This document shows, piece by piece, positions 21,798 to 52,040 of a stretch of 64,000 bases of DNA. The notes below the pieces were generated by a model, which saw only the letters and a list, made by a program, of their open reading frames with translations, was not told where the DNA came from and ran no database searches. Position numbers and translations under genes: made by a program. Position 1 is the first letter of the stretch, and the number at the start of each line of letters is the position of its first letter. Origin of the DNA: Methanothrix soehngenii GP6 (GTDB taxonomy: Archaea; Halobacteriota; Methanosarcinia; Methanotrichales; Methanotrichaceae); NCBI RefSeq assembly GCF_000204415.1, contig NC_015416.1, forward strand, positions 1,054,001-1,118,000. The letters run 5' to 3'.

Positions 21798-22337
21798 ATG
21801 ATGCGACTTAGATCTTATTTGGCCATCGGCATCCTTGTGCTCGCCGTGGTCCAGGCAGGCTGCCTTGGCGAAGAGGATGAAGGTGCAAAGGTCCTTTTGG
21901 AGACCAGCATGGGCAACATCACAATTCAGCTCTATAGCGACATGCCCATCACCACAGGTAACTTCTTGAGTCTGGTCGAGAAGGGCTTTTACGATGGGGT
22001 GATCTTCCACCGAATCATAGACGGCTTCATGATTCAGGGCGGAGATCCCGAGGGAACGGGCATGGGTGGACCGGGCTACACCATCGAAGACGAGTTCACT
22101 GATAATAATCGAAACGATCGGGGGACCATTGCCATGGCCAATGCCGGGCCCAACACCGGGGGCAGCCAGTTCTTCATCAACCTGGTGGACAACAATTTCT
22201 TGGACGACAAGCATCCCGCCTTCGGCAAGGTGATCGAGGGAATGGATGTGGTGGACAAGATCAGTAAGGTCGAGACGGACAGCAACGACCGGCCCCTGGA
22301 GGAAGTTGTGATCGTTCGGGCCGGTGCGATTGTCTAA
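21798..22337 (+). CDS. secreted lipoprotein peptidyl-prolyl isomerase (cyclophilin type)
   Basis: 179 aa. A signal peptide ([15 protein letters not shown], lipobox Cys about 24) anchors it outside the membrane. The cyclophilin domain has [33 protein letters not shown] (catalytic Arg region), GSQFFINL and [17 protein letters not shown]. It catalyses proline isomerisation, here for exported proteins. The following gene is a closely similar copy without the signal peptide, so the pair arose by tandem duplication. Confidence 0.92.
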
Positions 22338-22356
22338 ATTTGGGGATGATTTGATT

Positions 22357-22836
22357 ATGGCAACAGAGAGTACAGAGGCAGGAGATCGGATTCTGCTCGC
22401 TACCAGCATGGGCGATATCACAATTCAGCTCTACAGCGATATGCCCATCACCGCAGGCAACTTCAAGAAGCTGGTCGAGAAGGGCTTTTATGATGGGGTG
22501 ATCTTTCACCGGATCATTGACGGCTTCATGATTCAGGGCGGGGATCCCACCGGAACAGGCCGGGGAGGGCCGGGCTATGCCATCAAGGACGAGTTCACCC
22601 CAAATAGCAAAAACGCCCGGGGGACCATAAGCATGGCCAATGCCGGGCCCAACACCGGGGGTAGCCAGTTCTTCATCAACCTGGTGGACAACAATTTCCT
22701 GGATGGCAAGCATCCCGCCTTCGGCAAGGTGATCGAGGGGATGGATGTGGTGGACAAGATCGGTAAGGTCCAGACCGGTGCCATGGACCGGCCGGCAAAA
22801 GAGGTCAAGATCATGAGCGCAAAAGTGATCGCTTGA
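22357..22836 (+). CDS. cytoplasmic peptidyl-prolyl isomerase (cyclophilin type)
   Basis: 159 aa from ATG 22357; an upstream in-frame start at 22324 would overlap the previous gene and adds nothing family-like. The cyclophilin core ([49 protein letters not shown]) is nearly identical to the preceding lipoprotein, including long stretches of DNA, but the N-terminus (MATESTEAGDR) is soluble. It is probably the intracellular counterpart, co-transcribed with a 19-base gap. Confidence 0.93.
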   Translation: MATESTEAGDRILLATSMGDITIQLYSDMPITAGNFKKLVEKGFYDGVIFHRIIDGFMIQGGDPTGTGRGGPGYAIKDEFTPNSKNARGTISMANAGPNTGGSQFFINLVDNNFLDGKHPAFGKVIEGMDVVDKIGKVQTGAMDRPAKEVKIMSAKVIA

Positions 22837-23542: not shown

Positions 23543-24688
23543 TTACGTGACCACTCCCGCCCCCTTAAAGGGGCAGGCTTCTACGGTTTTGATTCCGACA
23601 GATTGTAGTCCCAATCTGAGTATATTGATTGCCGCATTCCAATCTCGATCCACCGAAAGCCCGCAATGAGGGCAGTTATGGACGCGATCAGAAAGCGTCT
23701 TTTCAACCAGAATGCCACACCTGGAACACATCTTAGATGTATTTCTTGGATCTACCAGGATCACCACCGAACCGGCACTTGCAGCCTTGTACGAGGTCAG
23801 AGTCACAAGCATATTCCAAGCCACGTCTGAGATGGATTTTGCCAGGCAATGGTTTTTGAGCATATTTTGAATACTAAGATCTTCAAAAGCGATCAATCCG
23901 AACCTGTTAACCAGATCCCGGCTAACCTGATGAGCAAATTCATATCTCTTGTTAGCGATCCTCTCATGGACCCGTTCAACGACCTTCGAGGCGGATCTCC
24001 TCTCCAGAGTACCTTTCGGTGCTTTTGAGAGCTTCCTTTGAACTCTGGTGAGTTCCTTTTCCTCTTCTCGGAAGAATCTAGGATTAGCTATCTTCTCGCC
24101 GTTAGAAAAGGTGGCGAAGCTCTCAAGGCCAACATCTACACCGACGAGAGAACCGTCTTTCCAGGGGGGCTTAGGTTGATCTTCCATCTCGACGGTGAAG
24201 CATGCAAACCATTTACCTGTCGCGGCTCTCCTTACGGTTAGTCGCTTGATCTTGCCTTCAATGGGTCTATGTAGCTTGATCTTGATATTACCAATCTTGG
24301 AAAGATAGAGCTTACCAGCATTGAGCTTGAACCCCTTCTGAGGATAGGTAAAAGAATCGTACCAACCTCTTCCCCGAAATCTTGGATATCCAGGATTCTC
24401 TCCGGCTTTGACTCTTCGGAAGAACGCCTTCAAGGCAAGATCCACCCTTTCCTGGGCATTCTGAAGGGTTTGGGAAAAGACACCACTGAGTTCTGGTTTA
24501 ATCTCTTTCCAAGTTGGAAGAAGGTTGTGAGTCTCGTATTTTGAGATGGATTTGCCTTCTTTCTCCCAGGCATTCTTTCGATAGGCTAATGTTTGATTGT
24601 ATGTCCATCGGCATAGATCTAGGGTCTGCTCCATCTTCGTCCTTTGGGACTTTGTTGGATAGATCCTAAACTTGTATGCCTTGAGCAT
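23543..24688 (-). CDS. tnpB: RNA-guided nuclease TnpB (OrfB family)
   Basis: 381 aa, apparently intact. The N-terminal helix-turn-helix (TKSQRTKMEQTLDLCRWTYN) is followed by the RuvC-like core: first Asp in GVDVGLESFATFSNG (about 184-198), Glu in IAFEDLSIQNM (about 271), and last Asp in DRDWNAAINIL (about 346). The zinc-finger insert CSRCG...CPHCG (about 318-338) is complete. TnpB cuts DNA under guidance of an omega RNA from the element's right end. With the boundary placed at 23547, the TAA stop and the last base of the ACG codon lie in host flanking DNA. Confidence 0.92.
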   Translation of the reverse strand: MLKAYKFRIYPTKSQRTKMEQTLDLCRWTYNQTLAYRKNAWEKEGKSISKYETHNLLPTWKEIKPELSGVFSQTLQNAQERVDLALKAFFRRVKAGENPGYPRFRGRGWYDSFTYPQKGFKLNAGKLYLSKIGNIKIKLHRPIEGKIKRLTVRRAATGKWFACFTVEMEDQPKPPWKDGSLVGVDVGLESFATFSNGEKIANPRFFREEEKELTRVQRKLSKAPKGTLERRSASKVVERVHERIANKRYEFAHQVSRDLVNRFGLIAFEDLSIQNMLKNHCLAKSISDVAWNMLVTLTSYKAASAGSVVILVDPRNTSKMCSRCGILVEKTLSDRVHNCPHCGLSVDRDWNAAINILRLGLQSVGIKTVEACPFKGAGVVT

Positions 24689-24793: not shown

Positions 24794-25063
24794 GACGTTA
24801 TAACCGAAGAGGATGAGCCGGATGTGATCAAGAGCGAGGCATTCATCATGGGCGATCACAATTCCGCCGTGGGATCCATATTGCAGCATCCGTCTTCCCA
24901 GGATGATGATACCACACTGGATGCGGATGAGACACAATCTGTGCTGTATGGGTGAATCCTCAAATTCAAGAGCAGTCCTGGCCGATCCGTCCAACAGGCT
25001 GGTGTATCTGCCATAATATTATACATCCAGCGCAAGCTGTGCCAGGACCGGCAGGCAATTATG

Positions 25064-25223
25064 GGCTCTTCGCTGAAATATGTGGGTGAGTTAAGGCAGG
25101 GAATATGGTCTTTTGTTCCTCTGCGCCTCTGTGGTTGGGTCAGAGCATCGCGGTTCACCACAGAGGCGAAAAGATACAGGGAATTTCCGATTCAAGTTCA
25201 CCCATTCCAAATAGCGAGGAGCC
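25064..25223 (+). repeat. 160-bp MITE-like repeat, copy 1
   Basis: Bounded by GGCTCTTCGCT and AGCGAGGAGCC, which are inverted repeats with one mismatch. The core has an internal palindrome (CCTCTGTGGT ... ACCACAGAGG) and ends in a strand rich in TTCCGATTCAAGTTCACCCA. A second copy of exactly the same length is at 26440, and a third in the opposite direction at 51.7 kb. No coding capacity is conserved. Confidence 0.8.
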
Positions 25224-25593
25224 CTCAGGCCAGCGGCTTTCATCGGGGTGCATTTGGCCTGCCAGCCGATGGCGTTGAAGGCCCCAGGATAATCGGACGC
25301 GAGCTTGATCTCGCCAGATGGATCTCCTGAGCAATAGGCCACTTGCACGCTAGATGTCGGTTGTGGCTGAGGAGAGCTGCGCATATTTTCTGGCAATTTA
25401 CCTTTTTGTCCAATAATCCATTTTCCTTTTTTGGTTAATTTATCATTTAATAATATGCCAATTTTTTCATTATTTGGGAGGATAATTTTGCTTTGAAGGC
25501 ATTTTTGATCTATATTTTTCACTATTTGACCGCAGCATTTATAGTGCAAGATGTACCAGGGCGAGATGAGGAATAGAACGGAGGTGATGATGC

Positions 25594-25701
25594 ATGGATA
25601 TGATGTCCCAAATATATGCGGTAATTCTCTTTGGAGCAATGGTGGTTTTATTGCCCTGGGGATTGAATAAATGGTCTGACACCCGCGCCGGCGTAAGGTA
25701 A
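25594..25701 (+). CDS. 35-aa single-span membrane protein
   Basis: MDMMSQIYAVILFGAMVVLL plus 15 residues ending SDTRAGVR: one transmembrane helix, then WGLNKWSDTR at the cytoplasmic-type end. A full-strength Shine-Dalgarno GGAGGTGAT lies at 25580-25588, five bases before the ATG, which is much better than most genes in the window, and a TATA-like TTTATAG is near 25540. Too short for most gene finders. Function unknown; small regulatory subunits of transporters look like this. Confidence 0.6.
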   Translation: MDMMSQIYAVILFGAMVVLLPWGLNKWSDTRAGVR

Positions 25702-26439
25702 GGATTTGCATTCCATCCGGTTAAGCCGGCAAGATGATGCTGACCTCCTCAGATCGATATATCGTGTTTATCATCTGGATGGGCAAAGGCACTTTTCAGT
25801 GGAATGGGCGGCACCGGTTCTGCAGGTTTGAATCGACCTGCAACCGGTGCTCTTTCCAGCCAGGCTGAGGAGGGAGCTGCCGGAAAATGATTAGCCTTCT
25901 TCGATCATTCTCCTAGGTCCGCTTGAACGCCCCCTTAGCCATCGCAACTCTTATCTCCAGATCAGGTCCTTCGAGCTCTTCTGCAACGGATTCGAGAAAC
26001 CGCATTAAGTACCAATGTGAAGAATAAACAACATTTTATGCCATATGATCCTAAAAGTAATTATATTTTCACTGATTGATTAGTAAAAATATTTTAATTT
26101 TACAAAAGATGATAATTATAGACCCGGATATATCTCCCAGATACACCTCTCACATGCATTGTGAGACGCTGTACCTATTGCTGCTCCGCCACATGGACTT
26201 ATGCTGCGCTTTTGCATGGCGAGGATTTCGGGTTGATCCGGGCGGAATGAGTTTATCGGCTTCTTCTCGCCGGGGAGTCTTATTGGCAATAACGTCCTTG
26301 TCCTAATAGCGCCAAACTCTGCAGATCCAAATGGTCACGTTAGTATCAGGAATAGTTATTAAGGAACAGGCTTAATAGTGTAGAAAATGCAGGTAGGATA
26401 ATTGAAATCGGATCCAATTCCAACCGGCAGGGAGAAAGC
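25702..26439. other. intergenic region with terminator-like hairpin
   Basis: 738 bases. It holds the hairpin at 25811-25850 and a 30-codon minus-strand ORF at 25913-26005 (MRFLESVAEELEGPDLEI...), which looks protein-like but lacks a ribosome site. The rest, including 26040-26400, shows nothing I can name. Confidence 0.35.
25811..25850 (+). terminator. long GC-rich hairpin followed by a short T-rich run
   Basis: GCACCGGTTCTGCAGGT pairs with ACCTGCAACCGGTGC around a TTGAATCG loop (15 pairs, one two-base bulge), followed by TCTTTCC. It lies 110 bases after the 35-aa membrane protein gene and could end its transcript or stabilise its 3' end. Confidence 0.45.
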
Positions 26440-26599
26440 GGCTCTTCGCTCAATTATGGGGGTGAGTTCAGGCAGAGAATATGGTCTTTTATTCCTCTGC
26501 GCCTCTGTGGTTGGGTCAGTGCATCGCGGTTCACCACAGAGGCACCGAGACACGGAGAATTTCCAATTCGAGTTCACCCATACCAAATGGCGAGGAGCC
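26440..26599 (+). repeat. 160-bp MITE-like repeat, copy 2
   Basis: Same ends (GGCTCTTCGCT / GGCGAGGAGCC), length and internal palindrome as copy 1. It sits immediately before the cysteine-cluster gene; its DNA is open in the same frame, so an annotation starting at 26402 would wrongly fuse repeat-derived residues to that protein. Confidence 0.8.
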
Positions 26600-26611
26600 G
26601 AGAAAGCCATT

Positions 26612-51648: not shown

Positions 51649-51725
51649 AGATCCACCCGCTTTCATTTGAGATCCGGAATGCGGACTACTGGATTATCCC
51701 CTTTGCGGCAGAGATCGCTGATCTC

Positions 51726-51874
51726 CGGATTTGGTGGGTGAATTTTGAATCGGATATTCCCTGCATCTTTTCGCCTCTATGGCGAACCGCTATGCTCTGA
51801 CCCAACACAGAGACGCAGAGGAACAGAGGCTATAACCTCTGTCGGACCTCAACCGCATAATTCAGCGAAGAGCC
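51726..51874 (-). repeat. MITE-like repeat, copy 3 (inverted, left end eroded)
   Basis: About 149 bp. The right end AGCGAAGAGCC is intact; on the complementary strand it equals the left end of copies 1 and 2. The core TTCGCCTCTATGGCGAACCG and CTCTGACCCAACACAGAG match the others with substitutions. The opposite terminal repeat is reduced. It ends 98 bases before the trp TATA box. Confidence 0.7.
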
Positions 51875-51972
51875 TGATACTCACTGGATGACAGGACAAG
51901 GACGAGAAAATGGTTGAGATCCAAGGGCAGAACCTCCGGACCATGAACCCATAATGCCAGCAATGCATAATC

Positions 51973-52019
51973 TATAAATATAATGTACGTTTTTACTCAG
52001 TAAAGTACAAAGTTGTACA
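51973..52019 (+). promoter_or_regulatory. trp promoter with three TrpY-type operator boxes
   Basis: TATAAATA at 51973-51980, then TGTACG (51984-51989), AGTACA (52004-52009) and TGTACA (52014-52019). Box centres are 20 and 10 bases apart, so the boxes lie on one face of the helix. TGTACA is the TRP-box consensus reported for the archaeal repressor TrpY in Methanothermobacter. The boxes cover the expected transcription start, so binding should block trpDFEGC. No trpY gene is in the window. Confidence 0.7.
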
Positions 52020-52040
52020 TCAATCGATCTGGTGATTCAT

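Follow-up and report, generated by a model that had tools for sequence, protein, structure and literature searches.

A sequence of 160 bp stands twice in full and once in part within a window of 64,000 nucleotides of the Methanothrix soehngenii GP6 chromosome (G000:C1:1054001-1118000; chromosome 3,008,626 bases, source genome 3,026,645 bases). The sequence is too short for a transposase gene, the open frames crossing its copies are no recognisable genes, and the locus raises the question of what kind of element this is and by what means it was spread. We consider it highly probable that it is a MITE moved in trans by a DDE transposase of the ISL3 family. The mover would be the ISL3 transposase of this genome or a closely related enzyme that has since been lost, and we infer that the core of the element was captured from, or maintained like, wider CTYTGTG hairpin repeats. 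A large, recently active, transposase-dependent family with a likely partner in an anaerobic-digester methanogen helps with annotation and with the interpretation of genome rearrangements.

Copies in the window and across Methanothrix

The first-pass annotation of the window had reported two copies of exactly 160 bp, with near-perfect ends and an internal palindrome, and the same positions were recovered here (table 1). Copies 1 and 2 begin with GGCTCTTCGCT and end with AGCGAGGAGCC, the right end of copy 2 reading GGCGAGGAGCC, and the palindrome is an inverted repeat, CCTCTGTGGT / ACCACAGAGG, with a loop of 21 bp. Their mutual identity is 89%, and copy 1 is 100% identical to the copy at G000:C1:670668-670827. 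The third copy had been described as inverted and as lacking one end, which held, with GGCTCTTCGCT preserved at the intact end; its extent had been given as 51726-51874, of which the sequence profile supports only the part from 51730 onwards.

Table 1. Positions of the 160-bp element, its parts and the adjoining gene in the window.
Feature	Position	Strand	Remarks
MITE copy 1, complete, 160 bp	25064..25223	+	8-bp target duplication absent
Left terminal inverted repeat, copy 1	25064..25092	+	86% over 29 bp vs one end of the G011 ISL3 element
Core left arm, copy 1	25114..25135	+	CTYTGTGN-type units, GTGGTT at end
Core right arm, copy 1	25157..25178	+	ACCACAGAG..
Right terminal inverted repeat, copy 1	25197..25223	-	G011 ISL3 element, opposite end: 85% over 27 bp; own element, 3' end: 77% over 48 bp
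Left target duplication, copy 2	26432..26439	.	GAGAAAGC; single GAGAAAGC at empty site in G041 and G016
MITE copy 2, complete, 160 bp	26440..26599	+	perfect 8-bp target duplication
Core left arm, copy 2	26495..26511	+	
Core right arm, copy 2	26533..26549	+	
Right target duplication, copy 2	26600..26607	.	GAGAAAGC
Gene immediately downstream of copy 2, 165 aa	26612..27109	+	start codon 12 bp past MITE
MITE copy 3, truncated	51730..51874 (profile-supported extent)	-	intact end 51864-51874; about 12 bp missing from other end

Several features of the surroundings were recorded. A TnpB-type RNA-guided endonuclease of an IS200/IS605-like element (23543-24688, minus strand; NF040570, 322 bits) lies immediately left of copy 1, and two neighbouring peptidyl-prolyl isomerase-like frames, named by eye, occupy 21798-22836 on the plus strand and are apparently a tandem duplication. 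The site of copy 3 (51667-52031) is situated between divergent genes for a solute-binding protein and an anthranilate phosphoribosyltransferase-like protein. Copies 1 and 2 share a ACCGGCAGG located exactly 8 bp ahead of their left ends (25044-25063 and 26420-26439). It is absent from the 14 bp listed beside the other copies, and the sharing is probably due to chance or to an old local duplication.

A BLASTN comparison with the whole genome and with relatives, as the first-pass annotation had proposed, yielded many dispersed copies, at least 40 of them of whole length in the own genome (E at most 7e-40). The sequence profile, built from 30 copies, located about 95 separate places there, about 60 of them complete. 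The repeat is far beyond chance. Pairwise identity among copies has a median of 83% and identity to the nearest relative a median of 91%, which suggests that the family is old and some of its members are young. The profile matched 21 of the 41 genomes searched; these 21 are all Methanothrix, and genomes from seven further genera of the class had no match. No similar element was found in plasmid and phage collections at E 0.01, and a literature search returned no published account of repeats in Methanothrix soehngenii. In a second Methanothrix species (G011), eight identical 159-bp copies occupy eight different sites, six with perfect duplications, one with a single mismatch and one cut by the contig end. 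These eight identical copies are the product of a recent burst.

Target duplications and the probable ISL3 partner

When the element was taken to run from GGCTCTTCGCT to AGCGAGGAGCC, 8-bp target duplications flanked 34 of 61 near-complete copies, copy 2 included; 25 of these duplications are perfect and 9 contain a single mismatch. When the right flanks were shuffled among copies, the expectation by chance was 0.8% (0.15% perfect, 0.7% with one mismatch). G+C content is 21% at the duplicated sites and 52% in the window. Open frames of 120 aa or more cover 28% of the insertion sites, compared with 68% of points drawn at random. The target sites are AT-rich, and insertions avoid open frames.

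These data bear on the simplest alternative, that segmental duplication or recombination spread the 160-bp stretch without any transposition, leaving homologous flanks at all copies. Such an origin would fit copy 1, where 7 of the 8 flank bases differ, and some divergent copies that also lack a duplication, but we regard it as extremely improbable, considering that the flanks of the copies differ and are unalignable, that copy 2 and more than half of the near-complete copies carry duplications of their own, and that related Methanothrix species retain an empty site. At the position orthologous to copy 2, G041 and G016 have one GAGAAAGC and no element (left flanks aligned by eye). The target duplications rule out segmental duplication for the family as a whole, while copy 1 alone could be a rearranged copy. 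Recombination between MITE copies was considered as the cause of its absent duplication and rejected, because the complementary flank was not found at any other copy; a local deletion or rearrangement is assumed instead.

In G041 and G016, about 95 bp more separate GAGAAAGC from the start codon of the following gene. A further deletion has to be assumed to account for this, by which the own genome probably lost DNA to the right of copy 2. Given the short distance to the start codon, the MITE is now the upstream region of this gene. Its protein has no Pfam or NCBIfam matches. The gene is conserved in a further four species of Methanothrix and in part in one more.

The transposition of such a short element would require an enzyme from elsewhere. 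The first-pass annotation had found no transposase with matching ends in the window, and indeed the own genome contains exactly three PF01610 matches, all of them outside it; a second pair of matching ends is likewise absent from the window. The three matches are near-identical copies of one 1302-bp element with an intact open frame of 406 aa. The protein has the DDE, HTH and Zn-ribbon domains of ISL3 (PF01610 with 255 bits, PF13542 and PF14690) and scores 339 bits against the NF033550 equivalog (cut-off 180), and the elements have GGCTCCTCGCT ends and perfect 8-bp duplications (GTTTATTG, AAATTCCA and TAATTTAG). By these features the 1302-bp element is assigned to the ISL3 family. A sequence search gave no solved structures for the ISL3 transposase.

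This element answers the earlier suggestion to look for an IS with the same terminal sequence: GGCTCYTCGCT ends and an inner GTGGGT are common to the MITE and the ISL3 elements, and the MITE and the own ISL3 element are alike at the ends only (72-79% there). For copy 1, identity to the own element is 77% (48 bp) at one end and 76% (29 bp) at the other, and the ISL3 element of G011 is closer (table 1). Assignment of the left MITE end to one fixed IS end was tried and rejected, because the own and G011 elements disagree. Partnership with the ISL3 family is secure from these ends; since the own element matches them less well than that of G011 does, a different ISL3 element that has since been lost could have been the actual partner. 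Mobility in trans, as first proposed, is well supported by ISL3 copies that share the ends of the MITE and have perfect 8-bp duplications, together with the dispersal, terminal repeats, duplications and empty site of the MITE itself.

In the proposed mechanism, the terminal inverted repeats of about 27-30 bp would be the end-recognition sequences of a transposase supplied by the three intact 1302-bp elements elsewhere in the genome. The enzyme would cut the element out and re-insert it at AT-rich, mostly non-genic sites, and a staggered target cut of 8 bp would give rise to the duplications. The CTYTGTGN hairpin codes for nothing; in sequence it is a modular inverted repeat, the pattern of which is kept while the loops of related MITEs change completely.

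Some MITEs moved in pairs. At G000:C1:996168-996637 two of them enclose a 154-bp spacer, and the duplication AAAAGAAA flanks the whole. Two similar composites, at about 2771310-2771667 and at 412214-412581, have one-mismatch duplications recognised by eye. All three MITE-spacer-MITE composites moved as units, and their cargo is a non-coding hairpin repeat of about 150 bp. A fourth composite (G000:C1:2745160-2745630) splits an apparent CRISPR repeat, GTTCCACGAAAACAAGGATTGAAAC, of which one perfect copy stands 72 bp upstream.

MITEs dependent on ISL3 are a kind already known, and the Methanothrix element is a further member of it, since a 187-nt MITE of Microcystis aeruginosa PCC 7806 has been attributed to an ISL3-family transposase (PMC11448079). 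The two elements are alike in the terminal nonamer GGCTCTTCG, in 8-nt duplications, in tens of mainly intergenic copies and in an ISL3 partner, which is 1215 bp long there; unlike the 160-bp archaeal element, the published one is cyanobacterial and longer. An 11-bp GGGTCTTCGGA repeat is also found, together with 8-bp duplications, in a Staphylococcus transposon whose transposase is of the ISL3 type (PMC9782665). The own 1302-bp element agrees with ISL3-family IS (NF033550/PF01610) in domains, duplications and ends, whereas the MITE is without transposase and has only the ends in common with them. The composites resemble TIME-COMPs, in which two Tn3-type MITEs move the DNA between them (PMC13367494), in that an 8-bp duplication surrounds the entire unit; they differ in transposase family and in having a hairpin repeat, not a gene, as cargo. 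Archaeal MITEs are on record from Sulfolobus, Halobacterium, Haloquadratum and others (reviewed in PMC10969869), and these are likewise non-autonomous, multicopy and moved in trans. However, an ISL3-linked MITE is unmentioned in that review, and Methanothrix is missing from its taxon list.

A modular core

The core of the element is modular: units of 8 bp, CTYTGTGN, are arranged in it as an inverted repeat. In G011 its arms read CTCTGTGC-CTCTGTGT-CTCTGTGG-TT with an inverted partner, and one G011 copy is short of exactly one 8-bp unit. MITEs of other Methanothrix species are 171-236 bp long, with different loops and with ISL3-type ends that start with GGTTCC or GGCTC. Since the same arms recur in them despite other lengths, loops and ends, the arms are the feature common to these MITEs apart from the ends. 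Of the 63 arm motifs examined, 16 are enclosed by a pair of ISL3-type ends; 8 of those 16 show an 8-bp duplication that is perfect or has one mismatch. A gene-poor region, G000:C1:729000-766000, contains most of the 9-bp-spaced motifs of the genome, with arrays of a unit of about 156 bp (2-3 copies each) on CTTTGTGNNCTTTGTGGTT arms; its frames, named by eye, are TnpB-like, IS110-type transposase-like and glycosyltransferase-like.

So strong a hairpin invites the reading that the hairpin itself is the mobile unit, as in REP/BIME-type or other palindromic repeats spread by a RAYT-like (HUH) enzyme or homogenised by the host, and CTYTGTG hairpins do stand alone in many genomes, mostly without ISL3. 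We nevertheless think this reading very improbable. The 160-bp copies stop exactly at the ISL3-type terminal repeats and have 8-bp duplications, where a palindromic unit without target duplication would be expected; related MITEs with different loops retain the same ends; and the only insertions found are bounded by GGCTC, none by the hairpin. HUH enzymes are not known to make such duplications.

Only a very slight chance is likewise given to a structured RNA family that was spread by transposition and retained for its RNA. The fold does beat shuffled sequences, with z -3.3 when the core is folded as RNA and z -5.6 when copy 2 is folded as DNA, but RNAalifold on 30 copies gave a covariation term of -0.15, with two-sided change in 2 of 31 pairs, the covariance test on these copies was negative for compensatory stem changes, and no Rfam family was found.

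A role for the arms in transposition itself would be an addition to the ISL3-driven MITE and not a replacement of it. The modular arms would then be extra binding sites of the ISL3 transposase, through which the core aids transposition. The arm unit CTCTGTGG is similar to TGTGGGT in the inner part of the ends, CTCTGTGGGT occurs at the 5' end of the own ISL3 element (IS positions 15-24), and arms are retained in MITEs with otherwise unrelated interiors. On the other hand, the distribution of arms outside Methanothrix, given below, makes this role rather unlikely.

The arm motif outside Methanothrix

The core motif matters more than the MITE family, as the pattern occurs in several different MITEs and in scattered genomes of many phyla, and its spread and preservation are directly testable. 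Records of at least 15 phyla, assigned by record title, contain CTYTGTGNNCTYTGTGNNCTYTGTGGTT. Of 197 genomes from the own phylum, 9 contained the pattern CTYTGTGN{1,2}CTYTGTGGTT, as did 14 of 96 genomes of another, among them the Opitutaceae record (G231) by which this phylum was defined. The pattern read backwards had almost no matches. Genomes selected for the motif have the motif at up to 383 places, against one control match in all. Arms outside Methanothrix point mostly outward (AACCAC...GTGGTT), with 60 GTGGTT ends outside, 21 inside and 67 without a nearby partner, which is the opposite of the Methanothrix MITEs, where these ends lie inside.

No ISL3 transposase was detected in 18 of 25 motif-rich genomes, compared with 17 of 21 motif-poor ones, and no ISL3-type ends were found within 200 bp of 137 arm sites. 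Therefore, the wider motif is independent of ISL3, and both observations speak against the arms as transposase binding sites. The MITE arms may descend from the wider repeats or may have arisen in parallel.

Tentatively, it is possible that the arms represent an undescribed modular hairpin class, in which (CTYTGTGN or CTYTGTGNN)n leads to GTGGTT with inverted partners. This class would occur in many copies in genomes scattered over a large number of phyla of bacteria and archaea, with no common mobile element, and would have been captured more than once by Methanothrix ISL3 MITEs; a shared process, either an unknown enzyme or unit-by-unit homogenisation, would keep its 8/9-bp pattern. The core motif was not found as text in the literature, either as 16-19-mers or as a 10-mer with repeat terms, which is weak evidence of novelty since such strings are rarely searchable. 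Two other archaea (G049:C1 and G064:C1:227668-228215) possess many CTYTGTG hairpins, around which no ISL3-type ends were seen by eye, and some of these hairpins form short tandem arrays with periods of 35 and 43 bp.
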